NCBI RefSeq assembly: GCF_018502625.1
Contig: NZ_CP075566.1
Coordinates: 625,001-689,000 of the forward strand
Origin: Pseudomonas hormoni
GTDB taxonomy: Bacteria > Pseudomonadota > Gammaproteobacteria > Pseudomonadales > Pseudomonadaceae
Direction: 5' to 3'
DNA length: 64,000 bases
Translations under genes and position numbers: made by a program
The notes under the pieces: model-generated
Database searches by the model: none
What the model saw: only the letters and a program-made list of their open reading frames with translations
What the model was told of the DNA's origin: nothing
Shown: positions 14,376 to 24,393 of the stretch, one piece after another
Layout of the letters: each line of letters starts with the position of its first letter
Position numbering within the stretch: position 1 is the first letter of the stretch

Positions 14376-16274
14376 ATGGGGCAGGCAAGTAGTCAGGCGG
14401 CGGGCGCGGAGCATTCGGCGGCAAAACCGATCGGCATGCTGGTCGCGGCGGTCGGGGTGGTTTATGGCGATATCGGCACGAGCCCGCTGTACACCCTCAA
14501 AGAAGTGTTTTCCAGTGCCTATGGCGTGCCCGTCAACCATGACGGGGTGCTGGGGATTCTGGCGCTGATCTTCTGGTCGTTGATCTGGGTCGTGTCGATC
14601 AAGTACATGATGTTTGTCCTGCGTGCCGACAACCAGGGCGAAGGCGGGATCATGGCCTTGACCGCGCTGGCCCGGCGGGCGGCGGGGGCATCCCAAGTTG
14701 AGGGGTTGCTGGTGGTCTGCGGGCTGATCGGTGCGGCGCTGTTCTATGGCGACAGCATGATCACCCCGGCGATTTCCGTGCTCTCGGCGATTGAAGGCCT
14801 CGGGCTGGCCTTCGAGGGCATCGACCATTGGGTCGTGCCGCTGTCGTTGATCGTACTGGTGGCGTTGTTCCTGATTCAGAGTCATGGCACCGCGCGGATC
14901 GGCATTCTGTTCGGGCCGATCATGGTCACCTGGTTCCTGGTGCTGGGCGCGCTGGGTGTCTACGGCATCCTGCAGCACCCGGAAGTGTTGCAAGCGATGA
15001 ACCCAGCGTGGGGCGTGCGCTTCTTCATGGATCACCCGGGCATGGGCGTGACGATTCTCGGTGCGGTGGTGCTGGCGTTGACTGGCGCCGAGGCGCTGTA
15101 CGCCGACATGGGCCACTTCGGGCGCAAGCCGATTGCCCGCGCCTGGTTCATCCTCGTGCTGCCGGCACTGGTGCTGAACTACTTCGGCCAGGGCGCCTTG
15201 CTGCTCGGTGATCCGGAAGCGGCGCGCAACCCGTTCTATCTGTTGGCGCCAAGCTGGGCGTTGATTCCGCTGGTCGGCCTGTCGACCCTGGCCACGGTGA
15301 TCGCCTCGCAAGCGGTGATCTCCGGCGCGTTCTCCCTGACCCGGCAGGCGATCCAGCTTGGTTACATTCCGCGCATGCACATCCAGCACACCTCCAGCGC
15401 CGAACAAGGCCAGATCTACATCGGCGCGGTGAACTGGGCGCTGATGGTCGGTGTGATCCTGTTGGTGCTGGGTTTCGAATCCTCGGGCGCTCTGGCCTCG
15501 GCCTACGGTGTGGCGGTGACTGGCACGATGCTGATGACCACCATCCTGGTGTCGGCGGTGATACTGCTGCTGTGGAAATGGCCGCCGGTCCTCGCGGTTC
15601 CGCTGTTGATCGGTTTCCTGTTGGTGGACGGTCTGTACTTTGCTGCCAACGTGCCGAAAATTGTTCAGGGCGGGGCATTCCCGGTGATCGCCGGTATTGT
15701 GCTGTTTGTGCTGATGACCACCTGGAAACGCGGCAAGCAGTTGCTGGTGGAGCGTATGGACGAAGGCGGGCTTCCACTGCCGATTTTCATCAGCAGTATT
15801 GCGGTACAACCGCCGCATCGCGTCCAGGGCACCGCAGTGTTCCTCACTGCCCGTCCGGACGCCGTGCCCCACGCGTTGTTGCACAACCTGTTGCATAACC
15901 AGGTGCTGCACGAGCAAGTGGTGCTGCTGACAGTGGTGTACGAAGACATCCCGCGGGTGCCGCCACAACGACGCTTCGAGGTCGATTCCTACGGCGAAGG
16001 GTTCTTCCGGGTGATCCTGCACTTTGGCTTCATCGACGAGCCGGATGTTCCGCAAGCGCTGAAGTTGTGTCACCTCGATGACCTGGACTTCAGCCCGATG
16101 CGCACCACCTACTTCCTCAGCCGCGAGACGGTCATCGCCTCCAAGCTTGAAGGCATGGCCCGCTGGCGCGAGGCGTTGTTTGCGTTCATGTTGAAGAACG
16201 CCAACGGCAATTTGCGGTTCTTCAATTTGCCGCTGAACCGGGTGATTGAGTTGGGTACGCAGGTCGAGATGTAA
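14376..16274 (+). CDS. kup: Kup low-affinity potassium transporter
   Basis: The 632-residue protein begins with a cytoplasmic leader, then the signature [20 protein letters not shown]. Some twelve membrane segments follow up to about residue 440, then a hydrophilic C-terminal domain. It takes up K+ coupled to protons. AGGAG precedes ATG 14376. It is divergent from rimO and closed by a strong terminator. Confidence 0.97.
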
Positions 16275-16287
16275 GGCCCGCGACATC

Positions 16288-16326
16288 AAAAAGCCCCCGT
16301 TGCCTTGCCGGCAGCGGGGGCTTTTT
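16288..16326 (+). terminator. Intrinsic terminator after kup
   Basis: AAAAAGCCCCCGTTGCC pairs with GGCAGCGGGGGCTTTTT. Confidence 0.9.
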
Positions 16327-16361
16327 ATTGTCTGGCGCTTACGACTGAATTGGCGGGAACT

Positions 16362-16455
16362 CCTGTGGGAGCGAGCCTGCTCGCGAAGACGTTGTGTCAG
16401 TCACATCTATGGTAGATGTGCCGCTGTCATCGCGAGCAGGCTCGCTCCCACAAGG
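16362..16455. repeat. REPIN (TGTGGGAGCGAGCC class)
   Basis: Arms CCTGTGGGAGCGAGCCTGCT and their reverse complement flank a centre that itself holds CACATCTA/TAGATGTG. It marks the left edge of the accessory island. Confidence 0.9.
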
Positions 16456-16489
16456 AATCTGTGGCGCCTGCTGAATTGCGCTCAGGCCA

Positions 16490-16792
16490 TCATATTTTAG
16501 ATTCGGTATTCGTCGCAGCCGGTCGCTCCAGCACCTTCACCGCATCATCAACCACGGCCTTGCTCATCGCCGTCAGGTAATGCGCGGCCCAGATGTGTCG
16601 GTCGGTATCGCGGTTGAAGGCAGCATCTCGGGTGAGTTCCTTGGCGAGGAACAGGAAGTCAGAGGCCATGGCTAACGCATCACCGAGGGGAACGTCTCGA
16701 CTGACAATGGAACAGCGCCTGGTTTGAGCAGTAGATGAAGGGGGTGAGGCCGATGGTTTTCAGCTCTGAAGGTACGGATTTGTTTTGCTCAT
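16490..16792 (-). pseudogene. Frameshifted small DUF3077-like protein gene
   Basis: An AAGGAG seven bases before ATG 16792 begins MSKTNPYLQS, then hits TGA. The expected continuation, ELKTIGLTPFIYCSNQALFH, lies in a second frame. The conserved C-terminal half, VSRDVPLGDALAMASDFLFL through HIWAAHYLTAMSKAVVDDAV, lies in a third frame and ends at TGA 16490. So two small indels break one gene of about 100 residues; the second looks like one extra T after CAT. This resembles small Pseudomonas DUF3077-type proteins of unknown function. Family assignment is from memory. Confidence 0.7.
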
Positions 16793-17005
16793 TGTTTCGC
16801 TCCTTAAAACGAGGAGCTGCCGCATTCGTTACCACACGAATGGGTGGCAGCTGTACGCAGGGTGGTAAACCGGTGGAGCAAAGGAACCGGCAGACCCGAA
16901 GGTCTCCCACGCACAGCCGCCTTAACACGGGATTACAGACGTAAAAACGCACGAACCGTGATGGGAGCGGTGTTGCACTTTGCCTAACCGGGTTACCACA
17001 CCCGA
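16793..17005 (-). promoter_or_regulatory. Highly structured leader upstream of the DUF3077-like gene
   Basis: Read on the minus strand there are several hairpins. CGGGT-GTGGTA-ACCCG is at 16989-17004. AGACC-TTCG-GGTCT, a UUCG tetraloop, is at 16892-16905. CCGGT/ACCGG is at 16870-16890. A long stem CAGCTGCC...GGCAGCT encloses CATTCGT-GTGGTA-ACGAATG (16823-16842). Finally GCTCCT-N7-AGGAGC (16799-16817) pairs with the Shine-Dalgarno. The last two stems share bases, so they exclude each other. Two loops are identical (GTGGTA), and a single-stranded segment (16862-16867) is complementary to them. Confidence 0.5.
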
Positions 17006-17415
17006 TCGCTGAATGGTCAGCGACGTCCGGAGACTATCCCGTCGAAGAAAAGCGCAACAAGGCATCAAAGTGCCCAAAAAACACGATTCGGAGTTTGCCT
17101 ACAAGGTCTGCGGGCGTCATCTGATATCGCGCCGTCTGAAACAAACAAAAACTAAACGCCACGAGCGCAATCAACTGGCGGCGGTAATTATCAATGTTGA
17201 TGTATATCCAGGGAATGCTCGACGAGCTGAATGACCTTCTGATTGAAGTAGCCGCTCTGGAACGCCTGACCGGTTTTGATGAGGTCGACGCAATTAGCGA
17301 CGACGATATGCGGGCTCGGTACGCCAGGAAAGGCCGACGGAGCTGGGCATGGCGCGTCTCTCAACAGCATCTGATGTATCGATTGGGTCTTGACGACTCA
17401 ATATTTTCAATGAGA
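17006..17415. other. Stretch without a convincing gene
   Basis: An open frame in phase with the HTH gene runs from ATG 17194 (MLMYIQGMLDELNDLLIEVA), but it has no Shine-Dalgarno and no family I recognise. It would also place the 17416-17449 palindrome inside coding sequence. It may be a remnant of an older gene or plain 5' flank of the cassette. Confidence 0.4.
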
Positions 17416-17449
17416 CAAGTGTCCACGTTTTATGGAATGTGGACACTTG
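17416..17449 (+). promoter_or_regulatory. Palindromic operator before the HTH-NTase-PP2C cassette
   Basis: CAAGTGTCCAC (17416-17426) and GTGGACACTTG (17439-17449) are perfect 11-base arms around a 12-base AT-rich centre. They lie 14 bases before the GTG start of the HTH gene. This is the geometry of an operator for a dimeric HTH protein, most simply the cassette's own first gene. A hairpin in the leader RNA is the alternative. Confidence 0.6.
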
Positions 17450-17463
17450 GGGTTTTTAGCATT

Positions 17464-18231
17464 GTGAAGAGTCAAGACATTTTGCTTTTGTTCAAGCTGG
17501 CCAGTCTGCACGCCCAGGAAGAAAATCTTTACGGGGCGATGGAATCTGAGTCGAATTCGAACGCGGTTGAGGGATTATTGAAGCCTCAGCAAGTAAATCG
17601 AATGACGGCAGGCGCGCGAGTAAGTGAGCCGCTAGCGACCTACCCAAATGATAGTGAAGCAACTGTTTTCCGCCGCCAGGCGTTCGACTCGCCCCTGAGC
17701 GATGAGGATGGTTGGGAAGGGTGGTCGGACCCAGCACCCTCTCCGCCGCTGGCGAGCTGGAGTGAAGGCTATTCGTTGCGTGCGCTGTCTGCATCTCTTG
17801 GAATAAGCAAAAGTGAGATTTCAAACGCCATATCCCGATGTCGCGAATCTGGACTGCTTATCAGCGATTACGACACCGGGCTGCCGAAAGTTAATCGGCG
17901 AGAGCTGCTGAAAATCACCGAACATGCTTTGAAATATTTCTTCCCGGTGAAACCGGGTGCAATGGTTCGCGGTATTCCGACGGGCTTTGCAGCGCCAGCG
18001 TTGTCCAAAAGCATCAGTAGCGCTGGCGAGCTGATTCCGGTTTGGCCGGACGCGTTGGGAACTGAGCGTGGTCAGGCGATAGAGCCGCTCTACAAGACCG
18101 TGCCGGAAGCCGTGAAGAAAGATAGAACCCTTTATCACTTTCTAGCGCTTGCTGATGCGATCCGTCTTGGCGGCCCGCGAGAGTGTGGCGTGGCGATTGA
18201 CATTCTACGGGCAGGGATGGGGCTGAAATAG
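17464..18231 (+). CDS. HTH (MarR-like) protein, first gene of the three-gene cassette
   Basis: From GTG 17464 the protein is 255 residues: MKSQDILLLFKLASLH, then a variable linker (about 20-100) rich in Ser/Asp/Pro, then an HTH (103-130, YSLRALSASLGISKSEISNA). The C-terminal region has VRGIPTGFAAPAL and GQAIEPLYKTVPEAVKKD. I recognise this as a family of HTH proteins that sit beside nucleotidyltransferase genes; it would act as repressor or antitoxin. The start is chosen because KSQDILLL is the usual N-terminus and the palindrome lies just upstream; translation from 17194 is possible. Codon use is less GC-rich than in neighbouring core genes. The next gene starts one base after its stop. Confidence 0.6.
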   Translation: MKSQDILLLFKLASLHAQEENLYGAMESESNSNAVEGLLKPQQVNRMTAGARVSEPLATYPNDSEATVFRRQAFDSPLSDEDGWEGWSDPAPSPPLASWSEGYSLRALSASLGISKSEISNAISRCRESGLLISDYDTGLPKVNRRELLKITEHALKYFFPVKPGAMVRGIPTGFAAPALSKSISSAGELIPVWPDALGTERGQAIEPLYKTVPEAVKKDRTLYHFLALADAIRLGGPRECGVAIDILRAGMGLK

Positions 18232-18232
18232 C

Positions 18233-18931
18233 ATGCCGTCAAACGCTGATCACAACTATGAGCTCATAGAATTTGTTGCAGACGGCCTGGGGGAGGCGTT
18301 TCTCGCTGAGGTTGCTTTTGTCGGTGGCTGCACCACGGCTATGCTGGTCACCGATGCTGTCGTGCTCGACGACATTCGTTTCACCGAAGATGTCGACTTG
18401 GTGATTGAGCTGGCAGGCATCAGCGAATGGCAACGCCTCACAGAACGCCTGGCGATCAAGAACTTCAAGATTACCGGCGAGGATGAGGTCAACTGCCGAT
18501 TTCGCTTTAACGATGTCGTGGTCGACGTGATGCCTTCTGATCCAGCGGTGCTCGGTTATGCCAATCATTGGTTCGTTGAAGGGCTTGCGAAGGCGGATAA
18601 CTTTACGTTGCCCAGCGGTCTCGTTATTCGGATATTCAAACCGACCTACTTTCTTGCCACCAAACTGGAGGCCTTTAGCGGTCGCGGTAAGGGCGATCCT
18701 TACCACAAGGATGTCGAAGACATCATCATATTGATTGATGGTCGTCCAGAGCTTCTGGAGGAAGTTAGCCAGGCTGGCTCGGAGCTCAAGGAGTTCATCA
18801 CGGCTGGAATTCGAGAACTCAGGAAGCTCGATGGCATCGACTACGTGATCGAAAGCTCGGGCTCGGTGCAAGCCAATCCAGGTAGAGGTCGAATTATTCA
18901 CGCGCGCATGAAGGACCTCGGCAACGCATGA
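18233..18931 (+). CDS. AbiEii-like nucleotidyltransferase
   Basis: The 232-residue protein has the minimal nucleotidyltransferase signature: GGCTTAM (G31-G32), then D53-V-D55 (TEDVDLVIEL) and the third acidic D98 (VVVDVMPSD). The AbiEii/DUF1814-type helix follows, FLATKLEAFSGRGKGD (K144) and KDVEDIIILIDG (D160, D163). Relatives include AbiEii and MenT toxins that add nucleotides to tRNA or other targets. All catalytic positions look intact. It lies one base after the HTH gene and overlaps the phosphatase gene by four bases, so the three are one operon. Toxicity is inferred, not shown. Confidence 0.75.
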   Translation: MPSNADHNYELIEFVADGLGEAFLAEVAFVGGCTTAMLVTDAVVLDDIRFTEDVDLVIELAGISEWQRLTERLAIKNFKITGEDEVNCRFRFNDVVVDVMPSDPAVLGYANHWFVEGLAKADNFTLPSGLVIRIFKPTYFLATKLEAFSGRGKGDPYHKDVEDIIILIDGRPELLEEVSQAGSELKEFITAGIRELRKLDGIDYVIESSGSVQANPGRGRIIHARMKDLGNA

Positions 18932-19599
18932 GATACGAAACCCGATCAGTAATCGGGCGGGCCAGGAATGCCAATCATGACTGTGCTGGAGCTTTCTGCG
19001 ACGGCGAACGAGGGCTGTTCGTCATCACGGACGGTACGTCGAAGCCGGGCAGTGGCCAACTGGCCGAGTACTTCGTAAAAGGTGTTTTAGCGGCGTACCC
19101 GAAACACATGGATCGGGGAGGCGATATCACTGAATACGGAGCAGTCGAGCAGGCCCTTCGTTCAGTGCTGGCCGAACTTCACCCCACTTTGTTTGCGGAC
19201 CAGACAGGGAGCACGTGTTACCTGATCGGTGTCGCTGCCCATGGAAAGCTGACGCTTGCTTATGAGGGTGACTGTTCGTGCGGAGTGGTGACACCCGCAG
19301 GCACGATTGAGTGGATTACACCGCCCCACTGCAAAGCCAATTGGCGGCGCGACCGTTCGCACCGTGAGCTGGCGCCAGATCCTGCTCGAAACTGGATAAC
19401 CCGATGCTTGAAAGTTAACCGTGCGCCAGACCCTGACTTTGTTTTTCACCCATTAGCTGTGGGTGAGCGAATGGTGTTCGTAACTGATGGCTTTTGGGCG
19501 GAGTTAACGGAGTCGCAGCAAAGCAGCTTGCTGGCGGCACCGGATAGCGACTTTATCGCCGTTGAAGATGACGTAACGTGGATTGATGTTCAGTTTTAG
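18928..19599 (+). CDS. PP2C-type protein phosphatase, third gene of the cassette
   Basis: The 223-residue protein follows the PP2C order: GRARNANHDCAGAF (N16, D18), LFVITDGTSKPGSG (D35), TGSTCYLIGVA (93-102), LAYEGDCSCG (GD at 114-115), MVFVTDGFWAEL (D187) and DDVTWIDV (D215). The metal-binding Asp are kept, but the DGxGG loop and GDSR motif are altered to DGTSK and GDCSC, so it is a divergent member. It overlaps the nucleotidyltransferase by ATGA. A phosphatase in such a pair is unusual; it may reverse a kinase or nucleotidyl modification or sense phosphorylation. That role is inference. Confidence 0.7.
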   Translation: MRYETRSVIGRARNANHDCAGAFCDGERGLFVITDGTSKPGSGQLAEYFVKGVLAAYPKHMDRGGDITEYGAVEQALRSVLAELHPTLFADQTGSTCYLIGVAAHGKLTLAYEGDCSCGVVTPAGTIEWITPPHCKANWRRDRSHRELAPDPARNWITRCLKVNRAPDPDFVFHPLAVGERMVFVTDGFWAELTESQQSSLLAAPDSDFIAVEDDVTWIDVQF

Positions 19600-19652
19600 T
19601 CTTTGAAGACAGGCCATCGACATAAAATTTGGCTAGTGGTTTGTACATGCAG

Positions 19653-19690
19653 AAAAGCCCCCGCTACCGTAAGGCAGCGAGGGCTTTTTT
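19653..19690. terminator. Bidirectional intrinsic terminator
   Basis: AAAAGCCCCCGCT pairs with AGCGAGGGCTTTT around TACCGTAAGGC-type loop bases. T runs on one side and A runs on the other serve the cassette (plus) and the hydrolase gene ending at 19706 (minus). Confidence 0.85.
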
Positions 19691-19705
19691 GTGGGCGGGT
19701 TCAGG

Positions 19706-21001
19706 TCACTCCTGAGCTGCCGTCTCCTTCGCCTGACGCTTCTCGATCACATCCACCAACCGCTGGGCCAGTTTCGGGTAGTTCTCGTCGAAGTGGTGGC
19801 CGCCGGGCAATTTGATCGCTTCGCCCACGGCGGTCTTGTCGGTGCAGCCGCTTTCGTCGATTTCTTCTTCACCGAAGATGCACACCACTTTTTCCGGTGG
19901 CAGCTTGGCCATTTCCGGGCCGGTGGCGGCTTCTTTGCCGGCGTTGCCGAGCCAGCCTTCGACTTCGATTTCGAAGCTGCCGGTGCGGGCGAAGGCCAGC
20001 AGGATGATTGCGTCGACGCGTTGCTGCTCCGACTCTGCCAAGCGGTTGTAGATCGCCGGCAACACGTCGGCGCCGAACGAGTAGCCGGTCAGGATGAAGC
20101 GCTTGGTGCCCCATTTCTGCCGGTAGTGCTGCATCAGCTCGGCGAGGTCCAGGGCGCTTTGCTCCGGGCTCTTGTGCTGCCAGTAGTAGCGCAGGGTGTC
20201 GATGCCGACCACCGGGTAGCCGATCTTGGCCATTTCGCCCGCCACATCGCGGTCGAGGTCGCGCCAGCCACCGTCACCGGAGAGGAACAGGGTAACGGTG
20301 TCCTTGGCCTGACCGGCCGGCACTTCAACCACTGGAATCTGCAGGCCGCCAGCGGCTTTGTCGCCACCGACGAGGAGCTTGCGCAGTTCGTTGTTCAGCA
20401 CTTGCGGCAGGTTGATGTCGTAGTCGCTGATGCTGGTTTCGGCGTTGGGTTGGTCGCGCACGAAGCCGGCGCTGGTGTCGTCCGGGTTATCGTTCCACGC
20501 CACCAGCCAGTGACCGTGAGCGGCGCTTTTTGGCAGCAGGTGGGTGCAGCCGGGTTTTTCCAGGGCCAGGTCCACCGAAACAGCCTGGGACTTGTCGTCC
20601 TTCTGCTCGGACAACCAGCGCCACGCCAGCACGGCGCCGGGGCCGATGCCGCTGACCAGGGTCGCCGGGCCTTTGAGTTCTCTCAGGCCCGCTTGCAGGG
20701 CGCGGCTTTGCAGCAGGCATTCCTTGGGCAGGATCACCTGAACGATCTGCGCCGAGCCGCTGCGGCTGAGGGTCATCAATTGTTTGTCGCTGAGCTTCTG
20801 GTCTTCATTGACCGCCACCAGCACCTGGGCGCGTGGCGTGTTGCCGGGAATGACGCGGGTCATCGCGGCGCCGTCGGCGGGTGTCAGCCGTTCGAGGGTC
20901 GGTTCTGGCGCCGGACGTTTGAGGTACCAGTAACCGCCGCCAAGAATCAGGGCCAGCACTACCAGTGTGGCCAGTACGTACCGCAAGGAGCGTTGAATCA
21001 T
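19706..21001 (-). CDS. AcvB/VirJ-family aminoacyl-phosphatidylglycerol hydrolase
   Basis: The 431-residue protein has an N-terminal anchor or signal (residues 8-27, LRYVLATLVVLALILGGGYW) and an alpha/beta-hydrolase domain with nucleophile elbow GYSFGAD and the SGDGGWRDLD loop; a late His (GGHHFDENY) completes the triad. P. aeruginosa PA0919, in the same place after mprF, hydrolyses alanyl-phosphatidylglycerol in the periplasm. Its start overlaps the mprF stop by one base, so the two are co-translated. It lies convergent to the cassette. Confidence 0.85.
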   Translation of the reverse strand: MIQRSLRYVLATLVVLALILGGGYWYLKRPAPEPTLERLTPADGAAMTRVIPGNTPRAQVLVAVNEDQKLSDKQLMTLSRSGSAQIVQVILPKECLLQSRALQAGLRELKGPATLVSGIGPGAVLAWRWLSEQKDDKSQAVSVDLALEKPGCTHLLPKSAAHGHWLVAWNDNPDDTSAGFVRDQPNAETSISDYDINLPQVLNNELRKLLVGGDKAAGGLQIPVVEVPAGQAKDTVTLFLSGDGGWRDLDRDVAGEMAKIGYPVVGIDTLRYYWQHKSPEQSALDLAELMQHYRQKWGTKRFILTGYSFGADVLPAIYNRLAESEQQRVDAIILLAFARTGSFEIEVEGWLGNAGKEAATGPEMAKLPPEKVVCIFGEEEIDESGCTDKTAVGEAIKLPGGHHFDENYPKLAQRLVDVIEKRQAKETAAQE

Positions 21002-23643
21002 CAGCGTTTCACCAATCCAGTCAAGCCGCCCGCAATCAGGGCAGCAGTGTCGGCCAGGGCAACCAGCGGATCAAGTCCGGCGGGCACGGCCATATAACGG
21101 GGTTCCCAGTCAGGCTGGAACTTGTCTTTGAAGCGGCGCAAACCTTGGAAGTTGTACAGCTGCTCACCACGGCGGAATACCATCGAGCCCAGGCGCTGGG
21201 TCAGTGGTGCGCCACGACGGGGTTGCAACCCCGACAACGGCACCATGCCCAGGCTGAAACGCGCGTACCCATGATTTTTATAATGTTGAATCAGGCCGAC
21301 CATCATGAATTCCATGGTCAGCTTGGGGGCCTCCGGGTGTGCGCGCATCAGGTCGAGGCTGGCCAGGTCGTGGCCGTAAGTCTCGAGCAAATTGGCAAAC
21401 GCCACCGGGCGTCCTTCGAAACGAATCACCGCGACGCGGAAATGCTTGAGGTAGTCATCGCTGAAACGGCCGAGCGAGAAGCCTTTCTCGCGCACGTTCT
21501 TGCCGGTCAGCCAGGCATCGGAAATCACCTTGAGCTCATCCATCGGCGCGTGTCCCGGCTCATGGATCTCCAGCGACAGGCCATCGCGGGTGCCACGGTT
21601 CCAGGTGTAGCGCAGGTCTTTCATCTCTTTGCCCTTGGCTTCGAGATCAAAGCGCTGCAGATCGACCCGGGCTTCTTCGCCGAGCTTGATCGCAGTGAGG
21701 CCGATGTCCATGTAGTACGGCAGGTTTTCCGCGCGGACTTGATAGAACACGGGGCGGGCGTGGTGGATGTCGCAGAGGTCGCGGAACTGCCAGATCATCT
21801 CGGCCCGTTGCTGGGTCGGACCGATCGGGTCGTACAAGGCCACGAGGCTGCGTCCACGGCGGGCGTACATCAAAAACGCCTCGTCGTTGGGATGGAACAG
21901 CAGCGCCTTGTCACCGGTCAGGGCCAGGCCGCCATCCGGTTGCGCGGAGGCCATCAGGATTTTTACTGCACGGTCCAGCTCATCCGGCGTCGGCACGTGG
22001 ATCACCGGGCGCGCGGTACGCAGCAGCCAGGTCAGGGACACCACCACCAGCAGCACGGCGGCGCCGAGCAGCGAGCGCAAGCCACGCGGGGCGTCTGCGT
22101 CGAGGGTGAACTGCCACCAGAGTTGATGGCTGTACGGAACGTCCTGATAAGCGAACAGCAGCAGCCAGATCGACGCACCGAGCACGCACAGGCTCGACAC
22201 CAGATACAGCGGCGAGAACGGCAGTTCGGTCAAACGGCTCGGGCGATAGAACGAACGCCGGAAAACCCCCAGCAGGCTGGCGGTCAGAGTCATCAGGCAG
22301 GCTTCTTCCCAGTCGAAGCCTTTGAGCAGCGAGAGCACCGCGCCAACCAGCAACAGAATGGTGGTCAGCATCCAGGCGGCCGACAGTCTACGGCGCAGGC
22401 CTTGAGCCAGCAGCAGGCAGAGCACGCCGACCAGGCTGGCGCCGAAGTGCGAAGCGTCGACCAGCCGATGGGGAATCAGAAAGCCGATGTGTTCCAGGCG
22501 CGTATCGATTTCCGGGGTTACGCCGGAGAACAGCAGCACCACGCCGGACAGAAACACCAGCACCGCCAGAATCGGCGCGGCCAGACCGGACGCGGCGCGC
22601 AAAGACTGACGGGTCTGGAACAGGCGCTGGCCTTCGTTGATCAGCAACAGCACGCAAGCAACGAGTAGCGGCAGCACCACGTAGATCAGGCGATAGAGCA
22701 ACAGCGCGGCAGCCAGTGGCGCGGCGCCAAGTTTGTCGGCAAAGGCGGCCAGCAGAATCGCTTCGAACACCCCGACACCGCCGGGAACATGACTGAGCAC
22801 GCCGGCGGCCAGGGCCAGCAGGTACACCAGCAGGAACGCACCGAACGGCGGTGCTTCCGGCAGCAACAGATAAAGCACGGTTGCAGCGGCGGCCACGTCG
22901 AGGGCAGTAATGATCAGTTGCAGGAACGTCAGGCGACGGCCCGGGAGGCGCAAGGTGCGACGACCGACCTTGACCAGCAGGTTGTCCGGATAAGGCTGCT
23001 CCGGCAGGCGCCGGCGATAGATGCCGACGGCCAATACGGTAAACAACAGCAACACCGCAGCGGCAATCGCAGCCAGCAACATCTCGGAGAGACCTAGGGC
23101 GGTGGAAGCGGCCGGCAGGTTGCTCAGCGTTGCGAGGGCAGCCAGGGGGGGCAGGGCGCAGCCGAGCGAGAGGCTGGCGAACAGCGTCATGTGAGCGACT
23201 TCTGAAGCCCCCAGACCATGACGTGCATATAAACGATAGCGAACCGAGCCCCCCGAGAGCATCGACAGACCGATGGCATTGCCGATGGCGAAAGCGGTGA
23301 ACCCGCCCAGGGCAAGAATACGCGGCGCCAGCGTCACGCCAGCATAGCGGCTGGCCGACCATTCATAGCCGAGCAAGATAATGAAGCCGAGGACGGTCGC
23401 CGCCAGTGCGCCCAACAGTGCCGGTTTCGGTACTTCAAGAATCGAGTCGTGCAGAGCGTACAGATCGAGTTCGCTCAGCAGATGGCGACAGGCAATCAGC
23501 GCGATCGCGAACAACAGCAAAGTGACCGCCAGACCAATGGGTTGGCGGTACTTGCTGATCCGATCAAGCAAGCGCAAACGCTCGGGCTTGATGGGTTGTG
23601 TCGCTGTGACGGTCTCTTGTGGATCAGACGAGTTGGCGCGCAT
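21001..23643 (-). CDS. mprF: MprF aminoacyl-phosphatidylglycerol synthase/flippase
   Basis: The 880-residue protein has an N-terminal flippase part with about fourteen membrane helices (residues 30-530; motif GNAIGLSMLSGGSVRYR) and a cytosolic DUF2156 aminoacyltransferase part (about 540-860). It transfers an amino acid from aminoacyl-tRNA to phosphatidylglycerol and flips the product, lowering membrane negative charge and sensitivity to cationic peptides. In P. aeruginosa the amino acid is alanine. AGAGG precedes ATG 23643. Confidence 0.95.
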   Translation of the reverse strand: MRANSSDPQETVTATQPIKPERLRLLDRISKYRQPIGLAVTLLLFAIALIACRHLLSELDLYALHDSILEVPKPALLGALAATVLGFIILLGYEWSASRYAGVTLAPRILALGGFTAFAIGNAIGLSMLSGGSVRYRLYARHGLGASEVAHMTLFASLSLGCALPPLAALATLSNLPAASTALGLSEMLLAAIAAAVLLLFTVLAVGIYRRRLPEQPYPDNLLVKVGRRTLRLPGRRLTFLQLIITALDVAAAATVLYLLLPEAPPFGAFLLVYLLALAAGVLSHVPGGVGVFEAILLAAFADKLGAAPLAAALLLYRLIYVVLPLLVACVLLLINEGQRLFQTRQSLRAASGLAAPILAVLVFLSGVVLLFSGVTPEIDTRLEHIGFLIPHRLVDASHFGASLVGVLCLLLAQGLRRRLSAAWMLTTILLLVGAVLSLLKGFDWEEACLMTLTASLLGVFRRSFYRPSRLTELPFSPLYLVSSLCVLGASIWLLLFAYQDVPYSHQLWWQFTLDADAPRGLRSLLGAAVLLVVVSLTWLLRTARPVIHVPTPDELDRAVKILMASAQPDGGLALTGDKALLFHPNDEAFLMYARRGRSLVALYDPIGPTQQRAEMIWQFRDLCDIHHARPVFYQVRAENLPYYMDIGLTAIKLGEEARVDLQRFDLEAKGKEMKDLRYTWNRGTRDGLSLEIHEPGHAPMDELKVISDAWLTGKNVREKGFSLGRFSDDYLKHFRVAVIRFEGRPVAFANLLETYGHDLASLDLMRAHPEAPKLTMEFMMVGLIQHYKNHGYARFSLGMVPLSGLQPRRGAPLTQRLGSMVFRRGEQLYNFQGLRRFKDKFQPDWEPRYMAVPAGLDPLVALADTAALIAGGLTGLVKR

Positions 23644-23883
23644 CAATCACCTCTTGGATTGTGCGCGACAGGATGGGGGTATCCAGCCAAGTTACCAATC
23701 CCTGTAGAAAAAAATAATCACAAATATTAACGCCTCTCGCCGGTTGTCGGCGATGGCAGGTCATCCGTCGTGGAGGGTTCTGTCTGCGATTCAGCATAGT
23801 CTGATCTCAGAGTTTCAGTGACTCCGAACGCTTCCCCACAGAGTGACAGGTCATTGTTGCGAAAGGACTTTTTCAACAGATAC

Positions 23884-23921: not shown

Positions 23922-23998
<77 letters not shown>

Positions 23999-24316: not shown

Positions 24317-24393
<77 letters not shown>

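Follow-up and report, generated by a model that had tools for sequence, protein, structure and literature searches.

Among the nucleotidyltransferase (NTase) toxins described so far, MenT1 and MenT3 of Mycobacterium tuberculosis, DUF1814 NTases of the MenAT systems, target tRNA and are inactivated by an antitoxin-induced auto-phosphorylation, at T39 and S78 respectively (PMC11375011; PMC10435456; PMC11541572). Other toxins are known from within type I restriction loci: the tRNase PrrC is silenced by the type I enzyme EcoprrI and freed by a phage anti-restriction peptide, giving a ‘second defence line’ (PMC2610378), and the DarTG2 toxin–antitoxin pair is embedded in a type I restriction locus that is repressed by RptR (PMC12255303). 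The PDC systems of the PADLOC catalogue are candidates chosen by ‘guilt-by-embedding’, and most PDC candidates of one survey's core set still await validation (PMC10855318; PMC12988326), while some embedded candidates of another kind did defend (PMC12988326). Here we analyse a three-gene locus of Pseudomonas hormoni, contained in a window of 64,000 nucleotides (bases 625001–689000 of contig NZ_CP075566.1, a single-contig genome of 6.48 Mb), in which genes for a winged helix–turn–helix (HTH) protein, an NTase and a PP2C-type phosphatase – genes A, B and C – stand in a row (Table 1).

All three profiles of the PADLOC-DB 2.0.0 candidate system PDC-M21 are matched by these adjacent genes, in the same order A, B, C, and by this comparison, made solely through the catalogue profiles, the window system is a catalogued PDC-M21 member. 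The original prediction had taken it for an undescribed system, a claim that falls with the catalogue entry, which already covers all three proteins; our literature search found no paper naming PDC-M21 or treating its function, and hence no characterization of it. Judged from its genes, the PDC-M21 module differs from the NTase toxin systems described so far by its attached phosphatase. Our preferred reading, held tentatively and with a little less than even confidence, is that of a phage-defence module in the PDC-M21 family that moves horizontally and is built on an NTase toxin. A role in defence or abortive infection, taken by itself, appears fairly likely, and the safer claim is that of an HTH-autoregulated NTase toxin in defence, with the target of the PP2C left unspecified. 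Much of what was first read from this locus stands, namely a co-inherited unit, a likely autoregulator, a MenT/AbiEii-like NTase and a PP2C with its ligands in place, while its novelty and the obligate trio do not.

The open frames and their coordinates agree with the tight operon packing proposed earlier, with a 1-base gap between A and B (18231 to 18233) and a 4-base overlap between B and C (18928–18931). Alignments were made from rows chosen for diversity among the fetched loci (34 rows for gene A, 38 for gene B and 26 for gene C), the gene B alignment excluding L104 and L115, in which a stop falls inside the stretch. The most likely start of gene A is the GTG at 17464, because the motif xK[SG]QD opens 34 of 34 aligned A rows; residue 1 is M in 32 of these, V in the window copy and L in one, and a longer gene A frame, from 17194, traverses a decayed neighbour gene.

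A scan of 84,980 species genomes yielded 261 relatives of gene B, of which the best 80 were retained; these come mostly from Pseudomonas, and also from Xanthomonas, Luteimonas, Endozoicomonas, Cellvibrio, Geobacter and several Alphaproteobacteria. Gene A lies directly upstream of B in all 80, and gene C directly downstream in 61, so the co-occurrence suggested for the three genes holds for the A–B pair, which is always together, and not for the trio as an obligate unit. Across 398 Pseudomonas genomes, B is matched in 58 and A in 62, a few of these being scraps. In the 199 Pseudomonas genomes searched first, the PP2C profile matches 180 through other PP2Cs, which called for a strict limit for gene C (below 1e-27); B was found in 35, with C beside it in 31 (one a remnant), and the remaining four carry A and B without C and have hsdM next. 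Relatives of gene B also occur in 116 plasmid records, 46 of them typed conjugative, and six of the seven plasmid regions that we opened hold three genes in a row (the third annotated as a protein phosphatase in four), the seventh, from Bradyrhizobium, having two annotated. On an IncC conjugative plasmid of Providencia stuartii (L155, 4270–6412), three genes stand in a row with the NTase central, all annotated as hypothetical. That the module is typically phage-borne was considered and rejected: 50,697 phage records held no NTase relative at E 1e-5, and viral contigs held one.

The NTase residues singled out originally (G31, G32, D53, D55 and D98) are all present, and T51, D53, D55, D98, K144 and D160 occur in 38 of 38 aligned rows, forming an [ST]-x-D-x-D motif followed by a Lys and a further Asp; from their spacing we infer that K144 and D160 correspond to K137 and D152 of MenT1. 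The predicted model of the gene B protein has a MenT-type NTase fold, with MenT1 nearest among the listed folds, and T51 occupies the position of the auto-phosphorylated T39 of MenT1, so that the likeness to the MenAT toxins spans fold, catalytic motif and conserved Thr. Likeness to AbiE (type IV) lies in the regulator-then-NTase order and in a weak match of gene B to the Pfam family AbiEii (PF08843; E 0.0055), which at 17.1 bits falls below the gathering score of 22.5. From HEPN/MNT systems the locus differs in that none of its three proteins matched a HEPN domain or a nuclease in Pfam, NCBIfam and PADLOC profile searches. We regard it as an even question whether gene B encodes a tRNA-modifying toxin.

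The reading of the HTH protein as a repressor, probably an autoregulator, is supported by the comparison of relatives. A GTCC-n15-18-GGAC dyad lies within 60 bases upstream of gene A in 76 of 78 loci, whereas random windows show it in 25 of 15270 cases and shuffled sequences in 14 of 7800, and because of this recurrence the gene A protein is very likely a local autorepressor that would bind the GTCC/GGAC dyad. The two loci without the pattern are L080 and L085, the latter cut by a contig end, and two of the 80 gave no start (L102, L115); the dyad is retained in restriction-embedded and alphaproteobacterial copies alike. In the genome of the window the dyad occurs exactly once, and four more sites resemble it with 2 mismatches; the backwards control gave 1 match. 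In the window, the dyad has an RNA-fold z of -5.3 and is absent from the repeat-finder listing. This palindrome scores as a terminator, but a TTTT run after it is confined to 16 of the 76 relatives, the dyad itself being kept, which argues for an operator instead. The structure model of the gene A protein has a pLDDT of 79.5, with residues 55–83 and 89–92 below 50, and its C-terminal half had no clear fold match in structure comparisons, whose reach is limited. Residues ~20–100, between the N-terminal helix and the HTH, are hypervariable and missing in many relatives, the remainder being strongly conserved in the alignment. Identification of gene A with RptR was rejected, because RptR is small and all-helical and has TAGCTA as its site (PMC12255303).

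The defence setting is seen in the relatives. In 17 of the 80 loci hsdM directly follows the module and hsdR precedes it, the latter identified by tblastn in 16 loci; in L074 the contig opens with the tail of hsdR (PADLOC 6.3e-41). In L080 a SoFic gene separates hsdR from A, and hsdR is split by inserted sequence in L088. Eight of these 17 loci carry the PP2C and have an HsdM 30–32% identical to the reference HsdM, eight lack it (88–100%), as does L080 (33%), and the restriction-embedded modules fall in two restriction groups; a quick gene B tree, with SH-aLRT support only and long branches, gives five changes for the PP2C and six for restriction. Seen from the restriction side, four of 18 hsdM places in 59 genomes (E 1e-60) directly adjoin A–B–(C). 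We also surveyed automatically 23 loci whose B genes are less than 80% alike. Of their 43 immediate neighbours, 11 match defence proteins at E 1e-20, whereas among genes at a distance of more than 2.5 kb this holds for 1 of 30 (the control used 30 of the 32 genes picked, as delimited by a rough custom caller). These 11 neighbours, five type I methylases, four type I restriction subunits or tails, SoFic and DrmMII, all come from six of the 23 loci, and the one distant match is PDC-M04A in L080. Single loci add further associations, drawn from 18 proteins picked by eye, of which 16 matched a PADLOC family: the A–B pair immediately precedes type I-C cas3, cas5 and cas8 in Novosphingobium (L099, 5426–11693), A–B–C lies upstream of DISARM-type DrmMII and DrmD genes in Lutimaribacter (L121, 5405–12120), and there are Gabija GajA near A–B–C (L044), Mrr (L110, L113), Drt3a (L113) and, in L107, an HsdR from another profile group. 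The lodging of a toxin-like module within the hsd operon of 17 relatives recalls PrrC/EcoprrI and DarTG2/RptR, from which the present system differs in its proteins and in that the window copy has no adjoining restriction genes.

In gene C, residues D18, D35, G36, D115, D187, D214 and D215 occur in 26 of 26 aligned rows, and we take these aspartates to belong to the numbered PP2C motifs. Its profile has its best match among solved PP2C structures in 2pk0 (E 1.4e-15) and, with the retained metal aspartates, resembles the Stp1/PrpC group of PP2C (PPM) phosphatases; it differs from them in falling below the cut-off of the Stp1-type NCBIfam model NF033484 (E 6.1e-11, 42.3 against 230) and in its loops, where DGT or DGS replaces DGxGG in 24 of 26 rows and an invariant GDC replaces GDS. 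The altered loops with metal ligands kept, D35 and D187 among them, had been recognized from the start. A Ser/Thr phosphatase in the same operon, together with the MenT-type Thr of gene B, makes T51 an obvious candidate substrate, and a phospho-dependent switch, one of two roles first suggested for the PP2C, is plausible when narrowed to this residue. PP2C enzymes take phosphate off Ser/Thr, not nucleotides off tRNA; given this chemistry, it is less likely that the PP2C fills the other suggested role and undoes what the toxin adds to its target. We consider it possible, if doubtful, that the PP2C acts on the gene B protein at all, and unlikely that it acts on T51 in particular. Quite improbable as a whole, though worth stating, is a scheme in which the PP2C erases the auto-phosphorylation of an NTase toxin that is stored T51-phosphorylated, the phosphatase arming it, such that a write/erase switch on a tRNA-modifying toxin would have been adopted, PrrC-like, as a fail-safe by type I restriction and singly by CRISPR I-C and DISARM.

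Put together, we hypothesize that the gene A protein acts at the GTCC/GGAC dyad to repress the operon and that it probably holds back the gene B protein as well. In the resting cell the latter would be held off, perhaps partly through a phosphate on its active-site T51; upon infection or loss of a partner defence, the gene C protein may strip such a phosphate and so arm (or reset) it. Once released, the gene B protein would add nucleotides to tRNA and halt translation, like MenT1 and MenT3, and in the restriction-embedded relatives the A–B–(C) core would act as a translation-stopping second line, like PrrC in EcoprrI.

Several observations weigh against this reading. Our literature search found no data for the PDC-M21 family on toxicity, NTase activity, phosphorylation or phages, and two other PDC candidates gave no defence when assayed (PMC12409345). 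The window copy has no defence neighbour, being flanked by kup and virJ as identified with Pfam, and a search of its genome with PDLC03026 at E 1e-60 yielded no hsdM, which places the window module outside any type I restriction operon; the phage-defence setting first proposed thus applies to relatives, with restriction and other defence loci adjoining, and fails for the window copy's own neighbours. Gene A has no match to AbiEi, MenA or any other antitoxin model in Pfam, NCBIfam or PADLOC (limit E 10, within HMMER filters), which sets the locus apart from AbiE. From MenAT it differs in its added PP2C gene and perhaps in its partner, since comparisons of this reach could miss an antitoxin of the MenA1 or COG5340 type. 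In gene B, the position between T51 and D53 is acidic (E or D) in 37 of 38 rows and holds V in the other, so that no row has the basic residue found beside the phospho-acceptor in MenT1 (R40) and MenT3 (K79), equivalents that contact nucleotide phosphates in models (PMC11375011). No gene C match exists in 19 of the 80 relatives, including L110 with a truncated C frame, and T51 never varies, whether the PP2C gene is there or not; a search for T51 tracking the phosphatase was therefore uninformative, and T51 does not single out the phosphatase substrate. Finally, in the restriction-embedded G183 (L041, 5390–5910) gene A is frameshifted while NTase, PP2C, hsdM and hsdS matches are present, which a strong antitoxin role of A would not predict; the frameshift could reflect true decay or an artefact of sequencing. 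Conversely, A is retained with B lost or broken in three relatives (G168, G228, G266), too few to decide; G295 is unclear, both genes are broken in G165, and there are scraps of A without B at four places (G009 C58, G018, G101, G281) and a scrap of B alone in G030. Such decay patterns were set aside as proof of toxin and antitoxin roles, there being too few cases (three against one, one unclear, one with both broken).

Other functions could be assembled from the same parts. Rather than a toxin system, the module could be a control cassette, in which A represses its operon, alone or with hsdM–hsdS, and B and C add and remove a covalent group on A, raising defence genes upon infection. The position of the dyad between hsdR and A in restriction-embedded relatives, where A–B–(C)–hsdM–hsdS could be one repressed unit, is consistent with such control, as is the published precedent of RptR, which represses a type I restriction locus that harbours a toxin–antitoxin pair (PMC12255303). 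Yet 63 of the 80 relatives, and the window, have no adjoining hsdM match, the single exact dyad in the genome speaks against a large regulon, and gene B is nearest to tRNA-modifying toxins; we therefore think this explanation unlikely.

We are similarly disinclined to see a plain addiction module, with A as antitoxin, B as toxin, the PP2C as an accessory and phage defence as incidental. Carriage on plasmids, many of them typed conjugative, and the constancy of the A–B core are what such a module would show; against it stand the enrichment of defence genes among direct neighbours, a PP2C that retains its catalytic residues where present (26 of 26 rows), and an insertion between hsdR and hsdM that recurs and is seen in two groups. 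Gene B could also be an antidote that nucleotidylates a partner, with the harmful part elsewhere, since the MNT antitoxin (MntA) of HEPN/MNT is likewise an NTase (PMC7641770); with no HEPN or nuclease match for any of the three proteins and MenT toxins as the nearest listed folds, this is highly improbable. The defence module built on an NTase toxin remains our preferred reading.

Pfam matches bear out the proposed insertion between kup and the virJ and mprF-like genes (Table 1). Like the window, 16 fetched relatives carry a stand-alone module between kup and virJ, and the same junction holds hsdR–A–B–C–hsdM–hsdS in L092 and L108; in L088 this form adjoins kup, virJ falling beyond the sequence that was fetched. 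Both edges are seen in seven of another 12 genomes opened at the junction, with 60–120 bases between them in four and 1.5–3.9 kb of other cargo in three, and the junction (window 16275–19705) looks like a cargo hotspot in Pseudomonas. An apparent transposase gene is among the junction cargo in L137. Of the palindrome in front and the terminator behind that were first assigned to the operon, both are present; the terminator at 19650–19691, however, looks like the site's own bidirectional terminator, because the empty site of the relative G002 (L135) has one copy and the window cargo is flanked by two.

Table 1. Features of the three-gene locus and its insertion site (window positions).
Feature	Position	Strand	Evidence
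Gene A, winged-HTH protein, 255 aa, GTG start	17464..18231	+	PADLOC PDC-M21A, E 1.4e-80; alignment
Gene B, NTase, 232 aa, MenT1-like predicted fold	18233..18931	+	PADLOC PDC-M21B, E 7.4e-91
Gene C, PP2C-type Ser/Thr phosphatase, 223 aa	18928..19599	+	PADLOC PDC-M21C, E 1.3e-61; PP2C profile
Dyad AAGTGTCCAC-n12-GTGGACACTT, probable operator of gene A protein	17416..17449	.	15-pair stem; RNA-fold; recurrence
Terminator, left copy (kup side)	16282..16332	.	Inverted-repeat listing
Terminator, right copy (would serve operon and virJ)	19650..19691	.	Inverted-repeat listing; single copy in empty site L135
kup, K+ transporter, left edge of insertion site	14376..16274	+	Pfam K_trans, 1e-184
virJ-type gene, right edge of insertion site	19706..21001	-	Pfam VirJ, 2.7e-77
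mprF-like gene, beyond virJ	21001-23646		Pfam LPG_synthase_C, 1e-95

The junction in the window also holds frameshifted remnants of a DUF3077 gene (16481–16769, minus strand) and of a Phd/YefM-like antitoxin gene (17127–17331, plus strand); genes of both kinds are kup–virJ cargo in G005 (L136) as well, the Phd/YefM match there falling below the Pfam cut-off. A 27-base inverted repeat at 16364–16452 (TGTGGGAGCGAGCCTGCTCGCGA...) is presumably a Pseudomonas REP element. Two tRNA-Met (CAT) genes lie on the minus strand at 23922–23998 and 24317–24393.

With these comparisons, the PADLOC candidate PDC-M21 gains a concrete anatomy, with a core of two genes, a phosphatase that can be absent, a single operator-like dyad and repeated insertion into restriction operons, even at the window's own chromosomal site. 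How MenT-type NTase toxins leave their phosphorylated off-state is a question to which the study of MenT phosphorylation offers no phosphatase answer, the word ‘phosphatase’ being absent from it and the sole ‘dephosphorylat’ concerning tRNA ends (PMC11375011). A MenT-like NTase and a PP2C in one module make this question of toxin reactivation directly testable.

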